From NCBI GenBank assembly GCA_947460255.1, contig CANHIS010000019.1, forward strand, positions 1 to 47,179: a DNA stretch of 47,179 nt, written 5' to 3'. The position numbers and the translations under genes were made by a program. The notes under the pieces were generated by a model. It made no database searches, had not been told where the DNA came from, and saw only the letters and a program-made list of their open reading frames with translations. Shown here piece by piece: positions 9,755 through 34,689 of the stretch; within the stretch, counting starts at the first letter, position 1; every line of letters starts with the position of its first letter. Source of the DNA: Bacteroidota bacterium (GTDB taxonomy: Bacteria > Bacteroidota > Bacteroidia > M30B66).

Positions 9755-12700
9755 ATGAAGCATCTCAGTTTTTTGCTGTTTTTATTCCTAAGTTTTACAG
9801 CATTCGCCCAGTATTCGTATCCCGAACCACGCATAAATCCCAATGATCCTTCATTGCCAGAGTGGGTTCAAGAAATGTATTCTGAAAACCCTGATGTTTA
9901 CAAGGTTGATCGCTTAAGAAATCAATATTTTGAGCAGAATAACAATCAGCATGATGTTTACACGCGATGGTACAAACGCTGGAGAAGATACATTGCTCCT
10001 TTTGTTTCCGACAATGGCAGGATCTCAATTCCAACTGCAGCAGAAAGGCTTCAAGAAGCTTCAATAATCAATAAAAGTTCTTCACGCGATGTCGGATCTT
10101 GGAATTATCTCGGTCCAAAAAATCACTTGAATGTTAAGTACGACAGCAACGACAACCACGTGCTAATCTCCGATCATTCTAATGTGTATTGTTTCGAAAG
10201 ATGTACTTCGAATCCAGCTGTTTTTTATTGTGGAACCGAATCTGGAGGCGTTTACAAATCGATCGATGCAGGCCAAAATTGGAGTTATGTTTCCAAAGGT
10301 CTTTCTGTAGAAAGTGTTACAGCGATTTCCGTTGACCCAACAAATCCTGATGTGGTAATTTTTTCATCCGCTGATGAAATCTGGCGTTCTATTGATGGCG
10401 GTTTAAATTGGAATATCGTTGGTAATTCAGGGTTTCAAGCATTGAACATTGAAGTATATCAATTCAATTGGCATCCATCGAATAATCAATTGGTGTTTGC
10501 AGCTACGAATCTTGGTTTGTATCGCAGCAACGACAATGGTTTGAATTGGACGCAGGTTTTCAGTGGAGAGAGCATGTCGGTGGAGTTTAAACCAAGTAAT
10601 CCGCAAATTATGTATGCTTTGCGTTACAACACGGTGACTCAAATTGCTGATTTTTACAAGTCTGTTGATGGTGGAAATTCATTCACTATCCGCCCGCAGG
10701 GCTGGTTTCAAGTACCTGCCGCAGATGCTGGTTTGATTGAAAGTCGTGGCGGAAGAATTGCTGTTACATTGGATAATCCCGAACGTGTGTATGTGTTATT
10801 GGTTGGATCGAGTGAAGCCTCTGCCCAGCTGCAACTGCGAGGAACCATTGGAGTATATTCTAGCGCGAATGCTGGAGAAAATTGGACATTTCCACACGTA
10901 TTACAAGGGATGCCTTACAACCAGCAAACTCATCCCAATTTGATGGATTTTAATGGTGAATCTTCAACATACAACCAGATTTACTACAATACTGCATTCG
11001 CTTGCTCTCAATTAGACGAATCCCGTTTGTTGATTGGTGGTTTGAATCTTTGGAGAAGTGAAGATGGTGGAGCTTCCTACGCGCCAGTTGGAGGTTACAT
11101 TGGTGATCTTCCATTAATGCACGTTGATTTACAGGAGTTTAAGGCCTTCAAAACGTCTGCAACTACCGAAGAGTTTTGGTTTAGTAGCGATGGCGGACTG
11201 AATCTTTCCAACGACTGGGCTGCTTCTCACGTTGCAAAAACTTCTGGCCTTGGCGCAGTAAATTTTTGGGGAATGGATCAAGGTTGGAACGACGATATTA
11301 TTGTTGGCGGTCGCTACCACAATGGTAACGCTGCAAGCAACAATCTTTATGGTGTAGGCAATTTCCTCTCACTTGGAGGTGGAGAATCGGCTACAGGTTA
11401 TGTGAACTACAGTCCCGAACGTAGAACATTTTTCTCCGATCAAGACGGAATTGTAATCCCGGCTCAATTCGACGGAATAGCCACAAGGTTTTCGGTAGAT
11501 CTTTTTCCAAATGAAAGCTATTTCGACAATGCGTCATCGAGAATTATGTTCGACCCTTTTTACTGGAATATCGCATATCTCGGTAAAGACAATGTACTTT
11601 ACAAAAGTACCGATGGAGGCAGCTCATACGCACCGATTTATACCTTCGGAAACAATCCAGCCGATCAGGTATTTTGGATGGAACAATGTCCTACAAGTCC
11701 CAATGTTTTCTACGTTCAGCAAGTTGTTTCCAATGTTAGTCGACTTTACAAGAGTACCGATGGTGGTTTAACTTTTTCGCAAATTATCCTTCCGCAATCG
11801 CGGAGAGAAATGTACTTCTCGGTTCATCATGAAAATCCTGATATTCTTTGGATTGCATTCACTTCGGGAAGCAATGGAAATAAAGTTTATCGAAGCGATA
11901 ATGCTGGTGGATCTTGGACAAATATCACAACCACTGCGCTGAATGGCCAGTCTATCAAGGCTATATCGCATCAGGCTGGAACCAACAATGGAATTTATGT
12001 GGCTTGTAGACGTGGCCCAATGTTTTACCGTGATGCAGTTTTGGCTGATTGGGATCAAGTGGGAATAGACATGCCTGCTGCGTCTTATCCACTGCGCATT
12101 TTGCCTTTTTATAAAAAGAACAAACTCCGTTTGGGAATGTGGAATATTGGTGTTTGGGAAAATGATCTACAAACTACATCTTCAATAATTCCAGGATTTT
12201 CATCAAATTACCGAAACTTCACCTGTCCAGGAGATACAATTTGGTTCACGGATCATTCGGTAAGCCCTACGGAAGCCACATTGCAATGGAGTTTTCCAGG
12301 AGGAACGCCATCTTCATCTACTGAAAGAAGTCCTAAGGTAGTTTACAATACCACCGGAAGTTTTTCTGTTTCTCTCACCGTTACACACAATGGAAGTAGT
12401 GAAACCATCACCAGAGACGTGTTTATTGAGTCATTGCCTGGAAATTCTTCTGCACTTTCAGAGAATTTCGAACAAGGTGTGCTTCAAGCTGGTTGGCGCC
12501 TGTTCGACGATGGAAATGATGGAGAAGTATGGCGTGTAACTGATTTAGCTTCAAGTGGATCCGTAGGAGATGGAAGTCTATTTTTCGACAATTATTTCCA
12601 GGATGTTCAGGGGAAAAGAGATCAATTAATTACAGCAAATTATATTGTTTCGGATCAACAAGATGTTTCATTGTCGTTTGATGTTGCTTATTCGCGATAC

Positions 12701-13225
12701 AATTCAACTTATTCGGATTCATTGGCAATTTATTTTTCGGAAGATTGCGGAGAAACGAAACAACTTGTTTATTTAAAAGGTGGGCAGGAATTGGCAACAG
12801 CGCCTGATTTTACTGCAGATCGATGGGTTCCTAATGCTGATGAATGGAGGAATGAGGTTGTTGTGAATTTGCCATTAAATTATACAGGAGATTTATCGAT
12901 TATTTTCGAAAATCGTGGAAAATATGGGCAGCCAATTTATTTGGATAATTTACTGTTGGAATACAGCACGGAAATAAATAATGAGTCGTTATTTGATTTA
13001 AAGGTTTATCCAATCCCAACGAACAATTTTTTACGAGTTGAGATTAAATCAAATCAAGAACAATTGCCATTTAGAATCCTTGATTTAACTGGAAGAATTG
13101 TTAAATCTGGACAGCTAGATCAGGGAAGTAATTTGATTCAAATGGAGGAATTATCATCGGGTGTATTTTTTATTGAAATTGAAAATTCCGGAGAAATAAT
13201 TGCTCGAAAAGTAATTAAGCAATAA
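9755..13225 (+). CDS. Large secreted BNR-repeat/PKD protein with T9SS sorting domain
   Basis: This 1156-residue exported protein starts with a signal peptide (MKHLSFLLFLFLSFTAFAQ, cleavage after about 19). Residues about 150-800 form sortilin/VPS10-like beta-propeller sequence with about ten BNR-type motifs (S-x-D-G-G-x-x-W/Y), for example KSIDAGQNW, RSIDGGLNW and KSTDGGSSY. A PKD-like domain follows (about 815-890, FPGGTPSSSTERSPKVVYNTTGSF). Next comes a jelly-roll-like region (about 900-1070), and then a T9SS type A sorting domain in the last 75 residues (VYPIPTNNFLRVEI ... ILDLTGRIVKSG ... LSSGVFFIEI ... ARKVIKQ). The last domain directs passage across the outer membrane and often anchoring on the cell surface. 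No catalytic motif was recognised; surface binding or glycan/protein interaction is the likely role. A bidirectional terminator follows. Confidence 0.92.
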   Translation: MKHLSFLLFLFLSFTAFAQYSYPEPRINPNDPSLPEWVQEMYSENPDVYKVDRLRNQYFEQNNNQHDVYTRWYKRWRRYIAPFVSDNGRISIPTAAERLQEASIINKSSSRDVGSWNYLGPKNHLNVKYDSNDNHVLISDHSNVYCFERCTSNPAVFYCGTESGGVYKSIDAGQNWSYVSKGLSVESVTAISVDPTNPDVVIFSSADEIWRSIDGGLNWNIVGNSGFQALNIEVYQFNWHPSNNQLVFAATNLGLYRSNDNGLNWTQVFSGESMSVEFKPSNPQIMYALRYNTVTQIADFYKSVDGGNSFTIRPQGWFQVPAADAGLIESRGGRIAVTLDNPERVYVLLVGSSEASAQLQLRGTIGVYSSANAGENWTFPHVLQGMPYNQQTHPNLMDFNGESSTYNQIYYNTAFACSQLDESRLLIGGLNLWRSEDGGASYAPVGGYIGDLPLMHVDLQEFKAFKTSATTEEFWFSSDGGLNLSNDWAASHVAKTSGLGAVNFWGMDQGWNDDIIVGGRYHNGNAASNNLYGVGNFLSLGGGESATGYVNYSPERRTFFSDQDGIVIPAQFDGIATRFSVDLFPNESYFDNASSRIMFDPFYWNIAYLGKDNVLYKSTDGGSSYAPIYTFGNNPADQVFWMEQCPTSPNVFYVQQVVSNVSRLYKSTDGGLTFSQIILPQSRREMYFSVHHENPDILWIAFTSGSNGNKVYRSDNAGGSWTNITTTALNGQSIKAISHQAGTNNGIYVACRRGPMFYRDAVLADWDQVGIDMPAASYPLRILPFYKKNKLRLGMWNIGVWENDLQTTSSIIPGFSSNYRNFTCPGDTIWFTDHSVSPTEATLQWSFPGGTPSSSTERSPKVVYNTTGSFSVSLTVTHNGSSETITRDVFIESLPGNSSALSENFEQGVLQAGWRLFDDGNDGEVWRVTDLASSGSVGDGSLFFDNYFQDVQGKRDQLITANYIVSDQQDVSLSFDVAYSRYNSTYSDSLAIYFSEDCGETKQLVYLKGGQELATAPDFTADRWVPNADEWRNEVVVNLPLNYTGDLSIIFENRGKYGQPIYLDNLLLEYSTEINNESLFDLKVYPIPTNNFLRVEIKSNQEQLPFRILDLTGRIVKSGQLDQGSNLIQMEELSSGVFFIEIENSGEIIARKVIKQ

Positions 13226-13295: not shown

Positions 13296-14063
13296 TTAAT
13301 TCACATGAATTAAATCGCCAGAACCTGAAATTGATGAGGTAACAATTGGATTGCCTTTGTACCTGATTTTTCCGGATCCACTGATTGATGCATCCAGCGT
13401 TTGAATCACATGAATATCTGCATTTCCAGACCCAGAGATATGAATATCTGTGGTTTGAGAAACCAAATTGAATCCTGAATATTCTCCAGAGCCTGTAATT
13501 GTGAGATTGTTGTTTGTAGTAGAACCAGAAATATAAATATCTCCAGACCCTGTGATTTGTGCAGTGAGAGAATTGGATTGAATGCTGCCATCTAATTCTC
13601 CAGAACCTGAAATTTCAAGTTGTAGATTATCGGATTGAATAGAATTCATCAATTGAATATCTCCACTTCCAGATATTCTGAGTTTATTCACTTCTGGAAT
13701 TTGAATTTGTATTTGAAGATCATCATCAGAAATTGACCCGCAGTTTTTTGTGTATTTGATCACCAAGGTTTCGTTGCTTACTGAAACACTTATGATGTCT
13801 AAAATATTTTCATGTCCAGAAATACTAACGAATTGAGAATCTCCTTGGGTTAATTTTAATTCAGCATCAATGGCTAGATCGATAGATTTGAAGCTGGAAA
13901 CATTGAAACTTTCGTTCACAATATTCCCTTTGCCCTTCAATGGAAAGCAATCTTTTTTACAAGATGAAAAGGTTGAAATGATTAGCAAACAGAAAACTAT
14001 GATTGCAGTAGCTGCGAAGTAGGGGAGTTGAAGACGGAGTTGTTGTACATTTAAATTTTTCAT
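13296..14063 (-). CDS. DUF2807/GIN-domain lipoprotein
   Basis: This 255-residue exported protein has an N-terminal hydrophobic segment ending in a lipobox-like FSSC (Cys about 35), so it is probably a lipoprotein. The mature part is a DUF2807 (GIN, 'putative auto-transporter adhesin head') domain: VNESFNVSSFKSIDLAIDAELKLTQG, then at least seven I-[ST]-GSG turns (LRISGSGDI, LEISGSGEL, AQITGSGDI, LTITGSGEY, IHISGSGNA, ASISGSGKI, SSISGSGDL) expected to stack as a right-handed beta-helix. The function of this family is not established. The frame is open up to 14120, but the ATG at 14061-14063 is preferred: it is followed directly by the signal sequence, and the longer version would begin inside the terminator at 14097-14131. 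Confidence 0.88.
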   Translation of the reverse strand: MKNLNVQQLRLQLPYFAATAIIVFCLLIISTFSSCKKDCFPLKGKGNIVNESFNVSSFKSIDLAIDAELKLTQGDSQFVSISGHENILDIISVSVSNETLVIKYTKNCGSISDDDLQIQIQIPEVNKLRISGSGDIQLMNSIQSDNLQLEISGSGELDGSIQSNSLTAQITGSGDIYISGSTTNNNLTITGSGEYSGFNLVSQTTDIHISGSGNADIHVIQTLDASISGSGKIRYKGNPIVTSSISGSGDLIHVN

Positions 14064-14096
14064 GACTTCTTTAGGTTTGACTCTAATACAGCCATG

Positions 14097-14131
14097 AAAA
14101 AAAATACCCCTATGCAGCATAGAGGTATTTT
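14097..14131 (-). terminator. Intrinsic terminator of the TPR/pseudo-caspase gene
   Basis: AAAATACCCCTATG (14101-14114) pairs with CATAGAGGTATTTT (14118-14131) over 14 positions with one mismatch and a 3-nt loop. On the minus strand the stem is followed by eight T's (plus-strand A's at 14097-14104). It lies 26 nt past the stop of the gene ending at 14157 and separates it from the GIN gene. Confidence 0.88.
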
Positions 14132-14156: not shown

Positions 14157-16517
14157 TTACTGTTTCTTAAAAAACAAGAAGCTGCCTTTTTCTTCTGTGA
14201 TACCTTTTATTCTTCCAAATTTTGCTGACCCTTTTTTGTTTTGAATAAGCATAGTGTTTATTTTCTCAGATAAACTTTCTATGCTGATACAAGGTGTGGA
14301 ACTGTTGCTTAGAATATTGCTAAACGACTGACTGAATAGCTTGTTTTCAGGAAGCATTTCTGTGTTTGAAACTGTGAGCATTTGCGCAGACTTCAGTTGG
14401 ATGCTTTCAAGTTTATCGCAGGTTACGACACTTTTTTCTTGACTTGAAGTTGCAAAAAGCGGTCCTGCATCTGCTGCATCCGATACCACCAAAATGTGTT
14501 TCAAATTTGAATATGCTTCAATAGAGGATCTAAGAGAATTTACAGAGTAAAATGAAAATTCGTCCCCAACAATCCCATCCACAGGAATCCAATAACCATT
14601 TTCATTGATCAATTGTGCTTGTCCACTGTACCAAATTAGCAGCGATTTCACACGGTTGTTTTGCACAAGATCTCTTAATTCAATGGAGAAGAATTTATCG
14701 AGTTGTTGCTTGTTCATGTCCTTCTTGATAAGCACATGATCAATTTGATATTTTTCTAGTGCTGATTTAATGTTTTCAATGTCACCATTTTCATTGGGTA
14801 GTTTGGTGAAGTTGGTATAGTTGGAATTGTCGATCATCACTACCCAAGTTTTTCCCATCGGGCTTTTTCCAAGGCTGTCTTCGTTTACCAGTTTATAATT
14901 GAGCACATTTTCATTTCCGAGCATATCTATTGCTTTCACCTCCAAGGAAGTAATCCCTTCAGTGCTTATTGTTGCTTGAAATTTAGGATTGAGTTCATCT
15001 ACCAAGAAAGTAGCCGACATTCCATTGATCAAGATCGATTTGATTTTGCTTTCGTCTGATATTTTCCCTTCAAGATAAATGCTTGTTTTCCCATCTGTAT
15101 AAATGGTTTTATCGATTGTTTCGAATGGCTGTGTTATGGTAACTTGCGGAGGATTAGTTTCGTTACGAATGATATTTATTTTCACGCTACCTGCATTTAA
15201 ATAGACATCATAAGCTTTAATCTCAATGAAGTTTTTGCCTTTCAAATTAATTGTACTTGAAAAAGCTGGATTCAGTTCTTCCTCTTTCACATCAAAAGGT
15301 TTTCCATCTATTAAGATTGATTTAATCGCGCTTTGATCCAACACCATTCCCTCAATTTGAATTGTTGCTTGATCGCCTTTTACAATGATTTCATTTGAGA
15401 TTCCTTGCGGTGAAGTAATTTTAATTATTGGTGCGATTTCCTCTTTGTTGGCTTCGTAGAGTTTCTCACGGGCAACAACGAATTGTCTTGAATATTCCTG
15501 ATTTTTTGGCTCTAATTCAAGCGCCTTTTTATAATCTCGAACGGCATCGTTTAAACTGTTGTTGGCTTCATAGCAATTGCCTCTTCCGAAAATTGATGCT
15601 GCATTGGTAGGTTGGATTTTTATTGCTTGATTGAAATCACTGATTGCAGCAGGAAATTGTCCAAGTTTTTTATTCACCAATCCTCTATTGTAGTAGGCTT
15701 CGAAATTTTTTGAATCTAATCCAATTGCTTGCGTAAAATCCTGTAATCCATTTTGAAGTTCTGTTTGTGCTAAAAACGATAAGCCTCTTTTAAGAAATAA
15801 GTTCGCATTGTTCTGAGAAAATTTAATGGCTTCACCATAATTCTTAATGGCTTGATCGTGTTTGTGAAGATTTGCCTGAGAACCAGCTAATCCAGCATAA
15901 TAAGAACTCATCAAATCGGTCATGGTGCGTCTTGATTTGTCTTCCAAAACTAAATCAATGGCGTTTTTGTAATAATTCTCAGCCGCTAAATCATTGCCTA
16001 GGCTGTCGGTTGCAACGGCTAAAAGGAAATGAAAACTATCGTCCTGTTTGTCAATAGTAATTGCTGTATTGCATGTTTTCACAGCTTCTGCAAAATCCTT
16101 TTTTAGTAACTGTAAATTTGCTTTCTGTCGATGAATACTGATTTGTTTCGGGCGAATTTTTAAGTAGTTATCTAATGCCATTATAGCTTGTGCAAAATCG
16201 CCATTGATTGTGTGGGCTTCTGAAAGATTTTCAAAAATATCTGTGTTCTTTGGAGCTATTGTTGCAGCTTTTGATAAATCACTTATTGCTTCGGGCGCTT
16301 TGTTGAGACGCATGAATGTTTTTCCTCGAAGTAAGAGCACATCCTCATTTTCGGGTTCTAAAGCATAAGCTTGATTCAATAAATCGAGTGAGATATTGTA
16401 TTCAGATCGAAGAAATGCTCCAAGCGCTTCTTTGTGAAGTTTTTTAGCAGATTGCCCAAATGATTGTAATTGAATTCCAAGCAGTATTGCGAAAAGTACA
16501 AGGATGATTTTCTTCAT
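14157..16517 (-). CDS. Exported TPR protein with Ig-like repeats and a caspase-like domain lacking catalytic residues
   Basis: The frame opens at 16529 (790 codons), but MKKIILVLFAILLGIQLQSFGQ begins at its fifth codon and is a normal signal peptide, so 16517 is preferred. Numbering here uses the 790-codon frame. TPR units fill about 27-358. Two related Ig-like modules follow (about 367-455 and 460-547); both carry KSILI-[DN]-G and ELNP-x-F. The last part (about 558-790) matches peptidase C14 caspase-like domains: VVMIDNSNYTNFTKLPNENGD, SLLIWYSGQAQLINENGYWIPVD and KHILVVSDAADAG. In active relatives these read YSGHG and SD-S-C-x-S-G. Here the histidine is Gln637 and the cysteine is Ala686, so the domain should be proteolytically dead. 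The fold assignment is by motif; a scaffold or sensor role is inference. It stands alone, with its own terminator. Confidence 0.85.
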   Translation of the reverse strand: MKKIILVLFAILLGIQLQSFGQSAKKLHKEALGAFLRSEYNISLDLLNQAYALEPENEDVLLLRGKTFMRLNKAPEAISDLSKAATIAPKNTDIFENLSEAHTINGDFAQAIMALDNYLKIRPKQISIHRQKANLQLLKKDFAEAVKTCNTAITIDKQDDSFHFLLAVATDSLGNDLAAENYYKNAIDLVLEDKSRRTMTDLMSSYYAGLAGSQANLHKHDQAIKNYGEAIKFSQNNANLFLKRGLSFLAQTELQNGLQDFTQAIGLDSKNFEAYYNRGLVNKKLGQFPAAISDFNQAIKIQPTNAASIFGRGNCYEANNSLNDAVRDYKKALELEPKNQEYSRQFVVAREKLYEANKEEIAPIIKITSPQGISNEIIVKGDQATIQIEGMVLDQSAIKSILIDGKPFDVKEEELNPAFSSTINLKGKNFIEIKAYDVYLNAGSVKINIIRNETNPPQVTITQPFETIDKTIYTDGKTSIYLEGKISDESKIKSILINGMSATFLVDELNPKFQATISTEGITSLEVKAIDMLGNENVLNYKLVNEDSLGKSPMGKTWVVMIDNSNYTNFTKLPNENGDIENIKSALEKYQIDHVLIKKDMNKQQLDKFFSIELRDLVQNNRVKSLLIWYSGQAQLINENGYWIPVDGIVGDEFSFYSVNSLRSSIEAYSNLKHILVVSDAADAGPLFATSSQEKSVVTCDKLESIQLKSAQMLTVSNTEMLPENKLFSQSFSNILSNSSTPCISIESLSEKINTMLIQNKKGSAKFGRIKGITEEKGSFLFFKKQ

Positions 16518-16603
16518 ATTTAATGGCATAATTAAATGAACCTGTTTTCAAATGTAACAATTCGAAACAGGTATAGGTGAATTTCTGAAGTCAGTAAATT
16601 CAA

Positions 16604-17434
16604 TTATAACGTAAAAACCAAACAATTCCAGTCTCCTTCAACAGTTGAACTATGCAATGTAAATCCTGCATCGCTGTATACTTGCGTGATGAGTTCAACA
16701 TCAGTTATCAGAAATCCACTTAGGAATATGGCTCCATTTTTATTTAAGCTTGCTTTGTATGCTTGAATGTCTGCCACAAGCACGTTTCTATTGATGTTTG
16801 CCAATATTATATCGAACGATCTACCTACAAGCAATGCTGCATCACCAGTTTCACCAGAAAATTCAACATCGTTCGCTGTTCCATTTTCTATGGCGTTTTC
16901 TGTGGCCCAACTTTCAATGTCGATTCCTTCAACTTTTTTTGCACCTAATTTTGCAGCAAGGATTCCTAAAACACCAGTGCCACAGCCCATATCCATCAAT
17001 GTTTTATCTTTTAGATCGGTGTCGAAAAGTGCGCGGCAAATTAAACGCGTAGTTGCATGATGTCCTGTTCCAAACGACATTCGCGGCTCGATGATTAACT
17101 CCAATCTTCCATCATTAAATGCTGGATGAAACGGAGCTCGAATAACGCATTTGTCATTTACTTCAACAGGGTCGAAGCCTGCTTCCCAAATGGCATTCCA
17201 GTTGGCTGGTGGTATGATGTTTTTCTCGATTGCCACACCTTTTGCATGTTCAACAAGGATGTTTTCCATCGCACTTTCATCAAGCTGTTCGGTTGGAATG
17301 AAAGCTTGAAAACCACTCGTGTCTTCAGTGAAGCTTTCAAACCCAATCTCCGCCAAAAGGCTGATAAGTAAATCGTTGAGCTGAGGATTTTTTCCTGAAA
17401 GTACTTTCAACTCGAAATATTCAACGCTTACCAT
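16604..17434 (-). CDS. prmA: Ribosomal protein L11 methyltransferase
   Basis: This 276-residue SAM-dependent methyltransferase modifies ribosomal protein L11. The N-terminal substrate-recognition domain (about 1-95) precedes a Rossmann-type methyltransferase with the PrmA hallmark MSFGTGHHATTRL (about 122-134), motif I LMDMGCGTGVLGILAAKLGA (about 144-163), EGIDIE and the catalytic-loop block DIILANINRNVL (about 207-218). Length is close to the Bacteroidota form. Its start overlaps the tpiA stop by 7 nt, so it is co-transcribed and probably translationally coupled with tpiA, an arrangement common in this phylum. Confidence 0.96.
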   Translation of the reverse strand: MVSVEYFELKVLSGKNPQLNDLLISLLAEIGFESFTEDTSGFQAFIPTEQLDESAMENILVEHAKGVAIEKNIIPPANWNAIWEAGFDPVEVNDKCVIRAPFHPAFNDGRLELIIEPRMSFGTGHHATTRLICRALFDTDLKDKTLMDMGCGTGVLGILAAKLGAKKVEGIDIESWATENAIENGTANDVEFSGETGDAALLVGRSFDIILANINRNVLVADIQAYKASLNKNGAIFLSGFLITDVELITQVYSDAGFTLHSSTVEGDWNCLVFTL

Positions 17435-18180
17435 GAATTTCCAATTTTTAAAAAGTCGGCCGATTTTAAAGATGCTCCACCGATCAAACCTCCATCAATG
17501 TTATCTCTTTCAAACAACGATGCTGCATTTGTTGCATTGCAACTTCCTCCATACAACAAGCTGATTTCCTCGCCTGTTTCGTTTCCTAGCAATTCTCTCA
17601 AGAGGTTTCTGATAAATCCATGTGCCGATTCAGCTTGCTCTGGAGTTGCTGTAAGACCTGTTCCAATAGCCCAAACTGGTTCGTAAGCAATAACCAAATT
17701 TGCTGAAGTAAGTTGATCAATTCCTTTGAGCACGGCGCTTAACTGTGTCGTAAGCACATCTTCTAGTTTACCTGCCTCGCGTTCTGCCAAGGTTTCTCCA
17801 CAGCACAAAATGATTTGTAAATCTGCCGCCAAAGCTTGTTTGCATTTTTCGAGAATAACGGCATCTGTATCTTCAAACATTGCTCTTCTTTCGCTATGCC
17901 CAAGAATTACATATTCTACGCCTAATTCTTTTAACATGGATGCAGAAATTTCACCTGTAAAGGCTCCAGATGCAGTAGCTGCGCAGTTTTGAGCCCCCAC
18001 CGATATATTACTTTCGCGAAGAATCTCAGAAACTGCATGTATCCAAACAAACGGCGGACAAACCACTAATTTCGATGAAGTATCTTGGTGTGAGTTTTCT
18101 TTTAACGACTGCGCAAGTTGTTTGGCATCTTCAAGACTGGTGTTCATTTTCCAGTTTCCTGCTACGATTTTCTTTGGCAT
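17428..18180 (-). CDS. tpiA: Triosephosphate isomerase
   Basis: This 250-residue TIM-barrel enzyme interconverts dihydroxyacetone phosphate and glyceraldehyde 3-phosphate in glycolysis and gluconeogenesis. The catalytic residues are visible in context: Lys11 in AGNWKMN, the histidine in VILGHSERR, the glutamate in IAYEPVWAIGTG, and the phosphate-binding ends LLYGGSCNATNA and GGLIGGASL. Length is standard. It heads the tpiA-prmA pair and has a consensus -7 element 18 nt upstream. Confidence 0.98.
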   Translation of the reverse strand: MPKKIVAGNWKMNTSLEDAKQLAQSLKENSHQDTSSKLVVCPPFVWIHAVSEILRESNISVGAQNCAATASGAFTGEISASMLKELGVEYVILGHSERRAMFEDTDAVILEKCKQALAADLQIILCCGETLAEREAGKLEDVLTTQLSAVLKGIDQLTSANLVIAYEPVWAIGTGLTATPEQAESAHGFIRNLLRELLGNETGEEISLLYGGSCNATNAASLFERDNIDGGLIGGASLKSADFLKIGNSW

Positions 18181-31488: not shown

Positions 31489-34400
31489 TCAGATGGATAC
31501 CTCTTCAATCAAGGGCTTTTCGTGCAGGTACACAACGTAGCCCTTCAACGATTTTTTGCCCATTTCATGGAGAATGTTCATGTAACCTTCCACTTGTTTT
31601 CGATGCGCACTTTTCGATTTTCCGGTTTTATAATCCACCACGATGGTTTCATTTTCTGTTTCTACCACACGGTCGGGACGCAACAATGTGCCATCTGCGA
31701 GTATCAAGGTTCTTTCAGCGTATTTTTTGTTTGTTGATTTGAAACAAGGTTCCATTTCTGGAAGAGTTAAAAGCGATTTCATTTGTTGCACGATTTCAGA
31801 TGCTTCTGATTCTGTGCACAGTCCATCCTCCAACAAACGCAAATGTGCCATCGAAAGATCATCGATCGTATTGATCCATGAAAGTGCAAGGTGGACCAAT
31901 TTCCCTAAACGCACTGCCTCCGATGGATCTTCAGGATCCCATAACAAATTGGCTTCTCGGTGAATATTGATCTTGTCTTGCCAAGCTCCGATGGAATACT
32001 TTATGAGCACAGATTTTTCTGCCGGCTTTTCCTCTTTATTCTTGGTATTGGTGAAAGCTTCTTCACCCCAAATAAATCGTCCATTATCGTCCTGTTTGTC
32101 AGTGTTTTGTGTCTTACAAAAATGACTGAGAAAATTGCCCCAACCTGCAGGATCTTTCGCCTCTTTGTCTTTCTTTGGCTTTACTTCTTTGTCTTCCGTT
32201 AAAATATATAAAGCCGACTCTGGACGGGTAGTGGCCACGTACATCAAGTTGATCAAATCGAGGTTGTAACGGTTGTTTTCCAGTTCAAGTAAGTCGGCAA
32301 AGACTGTGTTGTCGAGCTTCTTGCCAATATTTAATCTTGCCGACGGAAGTCCTGCCGGTAGTCTATTTGCATCACTTACCCATTCGTAAGAGTTCTGTTT
32401 TCGTTCGTTCATTGCAAATGGAAAAATAACCACTGGAAACTGTAGACCTTTCGATTTGTGAATCGTCATGATCCTCACAGCATTTGCACTTTGAGGTAAA
32501 GTGATGCTGAGTTTGGTTTCTTTTTCTTCCCAATATTCAAGGAACGATGGAATGTCGGGTGTAACCTGATCGGTAGCAAACCAAACGGCTTCCATAAAAA
32601 ACTGAAGAAACGGATTCGATTGCAAGTGAAACCCAAAGGCGCGACTAATTGAGTGGCATGCTTCAGGAAGTGACGATGCACGTAGTTTTTCGGTATTTAA
32701 ATGGATGTTCACCGAAGCCAATAATTTCACAACATCGGCCTCAATCATTTTACATTGCTGTATTAAATCGGGTAGATTCTTGAATGGAAGCCTATCACGT
32801 TCAACTAAATAGCTGCAAACATGAAACAGATTTACCGATGTATTCTGATCTGCCAATACGCGCAACCAAGCGAGTAACATCTGCACTTCTGCGGAAGATG
32901 CAACCAACAAAGATTCATTTGAAATCACTGGAATTTCTTCTGCAATCAAGCTGTTGGCAATCAAACTGCCGCTTTTATTGTTGCGTGTTAGTATGGCAAT
33001 ATCGCTGAATTCGAATTTCTTTTGCCCAACCAATTCTCGGATAATTTCCAGAATTCGGTGCACTTGAACATCGTTTTTATCTAAGTCGTTCTCCTCATCA
33101 GGCGATAAAAATTCAACCGAAACAAACCCTCCAGATTTACTTGCTGGACTGTTCTGGTTGAGACCCTTGTACACATCTTGAAAATCGCCGGTGAGCCAAT
33201 TCTCAGCTAACGATTTGTAAATCTGATTGTTCCAGTTGGTAATTTCGGGCAATGACCTGAAATTGGTTTCCAATGGAAGTTTTTTCTGGTTGGCTTTAAG
33301 TAAGGTGTATCGCTCAAGTTGAATTGGCGAGAGGTTGTATGGATAAGGTTCCGGCAGGCGGATAAATTGCTCCACGTCTCCGCCTCTGAAACGGTAAATC
33401 GCTTGTTTACCATCTCCCACAACTAGCGATGCAGATTCGGTTGACAATCCATTTTGAATCAATGGAAGCAAATTCTGCCACTGCAAAACCGATGTGTCTT
33501 GAAATTCATCGATGAGGTAATGTTGATACTTTTCGCCTAGACGTTCGAAGATAAAGGGTGCTGGTTCATGAAATACAATTTCTGCAACTCGTCTGTTAAA
33601 TTCCGAAATGTGAAGCAGGTGTTGTTCTTTCCGAATCTTATCGATCATGTTCGACAATTCGCTCATTAGTGCCATGGTGAAAAGTGAATCTTTGATCATT
33701 GAAATAAGCTGGTAATCTTTTCCCTCTTTGGCTTGCAGAATTAAAATTTGCTCAATGGCCTTAAAAAGTTGGTCTTGAATGGATTCAATCGTTGCTTTTT
33801 CGGCTGCCGTTGCAGTTCCACTAGACCATTTATCCGATTCGATTGTTTTAGCCACATTGGCTCCAAGTTCAATTTTGTCTTTGAAGTTTATTCCAAATTC
33901 ACTTGCTTTTTTAAAGGTGCCAAACACACCGTTTTTGCCATTTGCTAAAGCCTTTGCTTCGATATTGTGCTGGCTGAGCAGTTGCATTGCGCTTTCGCCA
34001 ATGGCGCGCATTTTCTCTTCATAACGGAGAATTGTTTTTTGAAATTCGTTTCGGAGTTTAATATAATCACCGGGTGGAATTTCCGCAAGCAATCGTATGG
34101 CTTCCGCTTTTTGATCATCCAATAAATCGTTTGCTGTTTCGGTAAGTTCCCTGCGGATGTCAAAGCCCTTTTCTTCATCGGTGTAAAACTCAGTGAAGCC
34201 TTTAAGTATTTTGGTAATCTCAGGATTTTCTCCAGCTTGATCAATGAGGTCATCAACAGCTTGCTGGATCAAATTTTCTTTTTGCAATTCAACCGAAAAC
34301 GTCACTGGAAGATGTAAATCATACGCGAATGTTCTCACCACACGGTGCATGAAACTATCGATGGTGCCTATTGAAAAATCGGCATAATTGTGTAGAATTG

Positions 34401-34689
34401 CTCGCAGCATTTCGTCGGCTTTCAGTTGGATTTCTCTAGCTGTTAAACCTGTTTCACTTTGCAGCGACTGCAATAAATCTGCAGTGGACGGATCTTGAAG
34501 ATGCAATTTTTCCAACATCGAAAGCACACGTTCCTTCATTTCGGATGCTGCCTTGTTGGTAAAAGTCATTGCAAGGATTTTCCGGAAGGCATCTGGACCA
34601 TGCCCGGCCATTGCCATTTTGAGATATTCCTTTACAAGTGTGTATGTTTTGCCGGAACCGGCGGATGCGTTATAGATGAAAAAATGCAT
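31489..34689 (-). CDS. AddA/RecB-like UvrD-family helicase with C-terminal nuclease
   Basis: This 1066-residue protein starts with the superfamily 1 Walker A loop (NASAGSGKT, 7-15). It carries motif Ia (AMTFTNKAASEMKERV, 40-55), Walker B DEFQDTS (394-400), motif III VGDGKQAIYRFRGG (424-437), a later VRIMTIHKSKGLQFPVVIFP and NLMYVATTRPE. The C-terminus has an intact PD-(D/E)XK nuclease: Asp1006 in LRPDR, Asp1019-x-Lys1021 in VVDYKTGK and QVEGY. The family resects double-strand DNA ends for recombination, normally with a second AddB-type nuclease subunit. No AddB-like gene is adjacent, so the partner must be elsewhere or absent. It sits 34 nt after the glycosyltransferase gene. Gene symbol left blank because AddA versus a solo helicase-nuclease cannot be decided. 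Confidence 0.92.
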   Translation of the reverse strand: MHFFIYNASAGSGKTYTLVKEYLKMAMAGHGPDAFRKILAMTFTNKAASEMKERVLSMLEKLHLQDPSTADLLQSLQSETGLTAREIQLKADEMLRAILHNYADFSIGTIDSFMHRVVRTFAYDLHLPVTFSVELQKENLIQQAVDDLIDQAGENPEITKILKGFTEFYTDEEKGFDIRRELTETANDLLDDQKAEAIRLLAEIPPGDYIKLRNEFQKTILRYEEKMRAIGESAMQLLSQHNIEAKALANGKNGVFGTFKKASEFGINFKDKIELGANVAKTIESDKWSSGTATAAEKATIESIQDQLFKAIEQILILQAKEGKDYQLISMIKDSLFTMALMSELSNMIDKIRKEQHLLHISEFNRRVAEIVFHEPAPFIFERLGEKYQHYLIDEFQDTSVLQWQNLLPLIQNGLSTESASLVVGDGKQAIYRFRGGDVEQFIRLPEPYPYNLSPIQLERYTLLKANQKKLPLETNFRSLPEITNWNNQIYKSLAENWLTGDFQDVYKGLNQNSPASKSGGFVSVEFLSPDEENDLDKNDVQVHRILEIIRELVGQKKFEFSDIAILTRNNKSGSLIANSLIAEEIPVISNESLLVASSAEVQMLLAWLRVLADQNTSVNLFHVCSYLVERDRLPFKNLPDLIQQCKMIEADVVKLLASVNIHLNTEKLRASSLPEACHSISRAFGFHLQSNPFLQFFMEAVWFATDQVTPDIPSFLEYWEEKETKLSITLPQSANAVRIMTIHKSKGLQFPVVIFPFAMNERKQNSYEWVSDANRLPAGLPSARLNIGKKLDNTVFADLLELENNRYNLDLINLMYVATTRPESALYILTEDKEVKPKKDKEAKDPAGWGNFLSHFCKTQNTDKQDDNGRFIWGEEAFTNTKNKEEKPAEKSVLIKYSIGAWQDKINIHREANLLWDPEDPSEAVRLGKLVHLALSWINTIDDLSMAHLRLLEDGLCTESEASEIVQQMKSLLTLPEMEPCFKSTNKKYAERTLILADGTLLRPDRVVETENETIVVDYKTGKSKSAHRKQVEGYMNILHEMGKKSLKGYVVYLHEKPLIEEVSI

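Follow-up and report, generated by a model that had tools for sequence, protein, structure and literature searches.

The window, a stretch of 47,179 nucleotides from a Bacteroidota bacterium (contig CANHIS010000019.1), was found to encode an exported protein in which a TPR array and two Ig-like units are followed by a caspase-fold domain without its catalytic dyad. This gene is read here, with a probability of roughly 0.6 and on sequence comparison, as a pseudo-protease kept as an exported TPR/Ig scaffold after the loss of a signalling partner. Both dyad residues are replaced, the gene is orthologous to caspases with an intact dyad, the partner is absent from the window's genus, and the usual order of constraint on the domains is inverted there. 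On this reading, the gene shows a protease on its way to becoming a non-enzyme. Its features were found to be as follows.

14157..16529, minus strand: exported TPR-Ig-pseudocaspase gene, 790 aa (open reading frame and full-length homologues)
16455..16529, minus strand: signal peptide, residues 1-25, mature start QSAKK (sequence, family N-termini compared, helix 5-22 in the model)
15444..16451, minus strand: TPR array, residues 27-362 (Pfam TPR, E 9e-35; helical pairs 28-361 in the model)
15162..15437, minus strand: Ig-like unit 1, residues 365-456 (beta-sandwich strands in the model; KSILIDG...ELNP)
14883..15146, minus strand: Ig-like unit 2, residues 462-549 (beta-sandwich strands in the model; KSILING...ELNP)
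14160..14864, minus strand: caspase-fold domain without the catalytic dyad, residues 556-790 (homologue alignment, AlphaFold, Foldseek)
14619..14621, minus strand: codon 637, Gln, in the catalytic His column (homologue alignments)
14472..14474, minus strand: codon 686, Ala, in the catalytic Cys column (homologue alignments)

The reading frame, the strand, the motifs and the positions of Gln637 and Ala686 were found to be as the first-pass annotation had given them, and its exported layout of signal peptide, TPRs, two Ig-like units and C-terminal caspase fold was borne out. The end of the signal peptide was followed by a conserved mature sequence starting with Gln (AQSAKK type) when the N-termini of the family were compared. 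The full-length AlphaFold model of the protein (pLDDT 85.9, pTM 0.52) contained the Ig-like units as separate beta-sandwiches with strands between residues 368 and 549. Both units were found throughout the TPR-Ig-caspase family, and the internal duplication that had been proposed for them was upheld.

The C-terminal domain was firmly assigned to the alpha/beta fold of Peptidase C14 (caspase superfamily) on the predicted structure, as the first-pass annotation had expected. For residues 552-790, AlphaFold with an alignment of 64 family sequences gave a model of pLDDT 81 and pTM 0.85, in which about 95 residues come after the second strand block, the region where a p10-like domain was considered. 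Foldseek matched this model in the PDB to MALT1, metacaspases and caspases (E from 4.6e-8, prob 1.00), with 261 matches at E<=0.001, and the 50 listed of these 261 were caspase, metacaspase or MALT1 entries. The family profile found MALT1 by sequence (E 0.0012), with the YAGHG motifs of MALT1 and the family aligned to each other. Family members matched PF00656 over the domain at E 1.6e-12 and 1.4e-16, and relatives with both His and Cys (H/C) are among those that match; no match to Pfam C14 (PF00656, curated cut-off) was found for the window protein searched alone. The single domain searched by sequence against Pfam, NCBIfam and the PDB gave nothing useful, and the family profile and the fold alone succeeded. 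The caspase assignment is firm because the fold matches, the MALT1 match of the family profile and the PF00656 matches of the relatives agree. The MALT1 paracaspase, the best PDB match by fold (E 5e-8) and by profile, also contains a caspase domain adjoining Ig-like domains, but it is eukaryotic, cytosolic and active, with another domain order and about 14% identity, so that the resemblance is one of fold only. The orthocaspases and metacaspases of MEROPS C14 (PF00656) share the fold, and the H/C relatives of the window protein match their profile, whereas the window protein itself has neither the dyad nor its own PF00656 match.

Alignments of 36 homologues and then of 131 distinct members showed that H/C relatives have the His (WYAGHG) where the window protein has Q637 and the Cys (DACESG) where it has A686. 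The His and Cys required for active Peptidase C14 are thus both absent, as had been claimed for this protein, and no intact dyad was found elsewhere in the chain. Judged by these alignments, the domain cannot be a His/Cys protease. The window protein is thus a caspase homologue without the His/Cys dyad, a trait that it shares with pseudo-orthocaspases.

Among named genomes, 254 relatives were found, of which 80 were kept, nearly all from Bacteroidota, and in a class-wide profile search the family was found at E below 1e-47 and other caspases at E above 1e-30. The TPR-Ig-caspase relatives were 79 to 30% identical to the window protein over the full length, and the window protein was found to share with them the signal peptide, the TPRs, the two Ig units and the caspase domain over that length. 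The suggestion that the architecture marks a family was confirmed to the extent that a Bacteroidota-wide exported TPR-Ig-caspase family exists, but this family is mostly catalytically intact (H/C in 107 of 131 distinct members). The remaining dyad states were Q/A in the window genome (G000) and G001, E/G in G003 and G004, L/G in G002, where the second site moves with the alignment, H/T in three paralogues, H/A, H/S or L/A in one other genus, and R/C in one stand-alone domain. On a tree of 83 full-length members, from a quick search and with G002-G004 on long branches, three changes of dyad state were needed, each group forming one fully supported branch. The dyad appears by sequence to have been lost about three times, namely in the window's genus, in a genus with a cyclase-ended partner and in the His/Thr paralogue, and the dead form of the window's genus is placed by this tree as a derived state, next to two other independent events.

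The His/Thr paralogues (L175, L140 and L052) were found to keep His and to contain Thr in place of Cys (DATETG), with a constraint on the caspase domain near that of H/C members. The stand-alone domain at L091:7225-8073 contained Arg at the His site followed by the kept Cys; its genome (G074) also carries several other caspase homologues. Stand-alone H/C caspase-domain reading frames of about 260 aa were found directly upstream of a full-length TPR-Ig-caspase gene at L122:1620-2429, L138:1432-2205 and L145:283-1056.

Most family members were found to be followed downstream, on the same strand, by a partner gene of about 1060 aa, with a median gap of 9 nt (76 loci). The partner contained a Reg_prop propeller, Y_Y_Y and SpoIIE (Pfam), and a transmembrane stretch was read from its sequence. 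Such Reg_prop-Y_Y_Y-SpoIIE sensor phosphatases thus adjoin most caspases of the family as a separate protein, and this protein is missing from the window's genus. All 72 members with a linked SpoIIE partner were H/C. The linked partner of genus g12 (family f8) shared the propeller and Y_Y_Y but ended in a class III adenylate/guanylate cyclase domain (PF00211, E 4e-57) in place of SpoIIE, and the caspases were all without the dyad, their reading frames ending just past the Cys site. The caspase of family f62 was found to be followed by an MFS-like gene, which by Pfam on L248 encodes HEAT repeats and a cNMP-binding domain; a similar-looking reading frame follows the propeller-cyclase partner of G282, a hint of a cyclic-nucleotide link (L248:1424-4738, L241:1854-5204 and L266:7362-8999 for these genes).

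The window gene was found to lie in a conserved block, the other genes of which are given below.

16604..17434, minus strand: prmA, upstream neighbour (Pfam PrmA, E 2e-44; synteny tpiA-prmA-caspase in G001, G004, G006, G007 and G008)
17428..18180, minus strand: tpiA-like gene of the same syntenic block (synteny; name from sequence)

The order tpiA-prmA-caspase was common to the H/C genomes G006, G007 and G008 and the dead-dyad genomes G000, G001 and G004, all of family f1. Because the block is the same, the dead window gene is the ortholog of the H/C caspases in f1, and on the tree the window's genus formed one branch next to these H/C members. Directly downstream of the window gene, a DUF2807 protein with a GSG-rich head domain was found (13296-14120), relatives of which also lie downstream in G007 and G009. 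It is adjoined by a large exported protein (9755-13225) containing Sortilin-Vps10, PKD and a T9SS C-terminal sorting domain, and this gene pair was found close to the caspase gene in several f1 genomes.

The SpoIIE partner was found elsewhere in the genome in G006-G009, all four H/C (G009 fragmentary). The five genomes of the window's genus (G000-G004) yielded no propeller-SpoIIE gene, linked or unlinked, and contained at most one other SpoIIE protein, soluble and of about 415 aa, also present in the other f1 members. In G006 and G007, an AddB-like nuclease gene and a ceramidase-like gene flank the partner; in G000 and G001, the same two genes flank an Sbt_1 transporter gene in its place, and no trace of partner remnants was found in this 1.1-kb site. 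In G005 (80% complete), the AddB-like and ceramidase-like genes abut, and neither caspase nor partner was found in that assembly. A window gene of partner-like size (31489-34689, 1066 aa) was considered as a candidate and was found to be helicase-nuclease-like by sequence, not the partner.

A strict rule, dyad intact if and only if a SpoIIE partner is present, was rejected. Three genomes (G181, G303 and G151, 92-96% complete) contained an H/C caspase without a propeller-SpoIIE or propeller-cyclase match at the thresholds used, and G282 contained an H/C caspase with an unlinked propeller-cyclase; partner loss is therefore not sufficient for dyad loss. The genomes compared throughout are mostly metagenome assemblies of varying completeness. 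For a phylogenetic sign test, the three independent losses were too few to reach significance. Given the counterexample genomes and only three loss events, a causal link between partner loss and dyad loss is unproven.

The exported caspase of the active-looking relatives is normally paired with a membrane sensor, consisting of a periplasmic beta-propeller, Y_Y_Y and a cytoplasmic SpoIIE (PP2C) phosphatase, and gene neighbourhood and co-loss suggest that the two probably act in one pathway. In the ancestor of the window's genus, the sensor-phosphatase gene and the dyad would both have disappeared, in either order, and the same neighbourhood and co-loss are consistent with partner loss having relaxed the need for catalysis. 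The retained protein, periplasmic or on the surface, would bind through its TPR and Ig modules, with scaffolding as its likely remaining function, and its caspase domain would be drifting while still folded. A wider reading is offered tentatively, as somewhat less probable than its negation: that Bacteroidota possess an undescribed signalling module of a secreted TPR-Ig-caspase and a transmembrane propeller-SpoIIE phosphatase (replaced by a propeller-adenylate/guanylate cyclase in one lineage), in which caspase catalysis would be needed for the phosphatase output and the dyad would be lost where that output is lost (the window's genus) or swapped (the cyclase genus).

The constraint on the domains was found to be inverted in the window's genus. 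The caspase identity was never below the TPR identity in 4851 H/C pairs, yet all ten pairs drawn from the window's genus had the lower value in the caspase domain; these counts give a pattern and not a test because the pairs are not independent. Between G000 and G001, the TPRs were 90% identical vs 71% for the caspase domain, and H/C pairs of like TPR identity contained caspase domains at least 89% identical. The dN of this pair was 0.05 for TPR, 0.18 for Ig and 0.22 for caspase, against saturated or nearly saturated synonymous sites, so that purifying selection still acts on the caspase domain. Among the 65 positions that H/C members conserve, 64-65 were kept in G006-G008, 46-48 in G000/G001 (46 in G000) and 26-28 in G002-G004, the lost ones gathering at the active-site loops (A635, H637, G638, K639, C686, E687, R697, G579 and P580). 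A binding or sensing role, proposed as the reason why the domain was kept, is possible, but the TPR part and not the caspase part is held most tightly; by these comparisons, the TPR and Ig parts appear to be what selection now holds in the genus.

The same data bear on a second reading, in which the dead caspase domain would itself be selected as a substrate-binding decoy, trap or regulator by analogy with cyanobacterial pseudo-orthocaspases. The fold and most conserved positions, including Asp684, are kept in G000/G001, the reading frame is open in all five genus members, dN is clearly below synonymous change, and knock-out of the pseudo-orthocaspase SyOC of Synechocystis has a phenotype (PMC7889975). 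However, the clustering of losses at the active-site loops, the few positions kept in G002-G004, as against cyanobacterial YS forms with the substrate pocket kept (PMC6426788), and the faster evolution of the caspase domain than of the TPRs argue against it, and this reading is considered rather improbable, at about one chance in four. Decay of the whole gene towards a pseudogene would fit the relaxed constraint on the caspase domain and the loss of the dyad via different residues in sister species, but no stop or frameshift was found in the five members of the genus, the TPR dN stays low beside near-saturated synonymous change and the TPRs of close pairs are 90-92% identical, which makes decay very improbable. 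Least probable of all is a domain still hydrolysing through other residues, for although it is predicted to fold, is under purifying selection and has a His/Thr paralogue keeping 53-57 of the 65 positions, where a Thr nucleophile is conceivable as it is not in the window protein, the His loop has also lost Gly638 and Lys639, the Cys loop has lost Glu687, and the E/G and L/G sister species contain no shared alternative Ser, Thr or Cys at these sites.

Pseudo-caspases had been called little described in bacteria, which does not hold in general, since 858 of 9,994 bacterial orthocaspases are without the dyad, though only 10 of 1078 sequences from Bacteroidetes are (PMC6426788). The described forms (PMC6426788; SyOC, PMC7889975) resemble the window protein in a caspase p20-like fold whose His/Cys dyad is replaced, in Q at the His site (QC) or A at the Cys site (HA, YA), and some of them carry TPRs (FS type). 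They come mainly from Alphaproteobacteria and Cyanobacteria, the cyanobacterial YS forms having a conserved substrate pocket, whereas the window protein belongs to an exported TPR-Ig family of Bacteroidota, contains Q/A and has diverging active-site loops. In a 2012 survey of the operon neighbourhoods of prokaryotic metacaspases (PMC3501461), the section considered makes no mention of a caspase/SpoIIE pairing. A literature search found no paper joining the two, an absence that is no proof of novelty.

Few bacterial caspase homologues have a known function, and the tight gene pairing of an exported caspase with a sensor phosphatase provides a testable pathway for one family of them. The window's genus, with the partner gone and the dyad lost in the orthologous gene, is a natural experiment on the purpose of the catalytic site.
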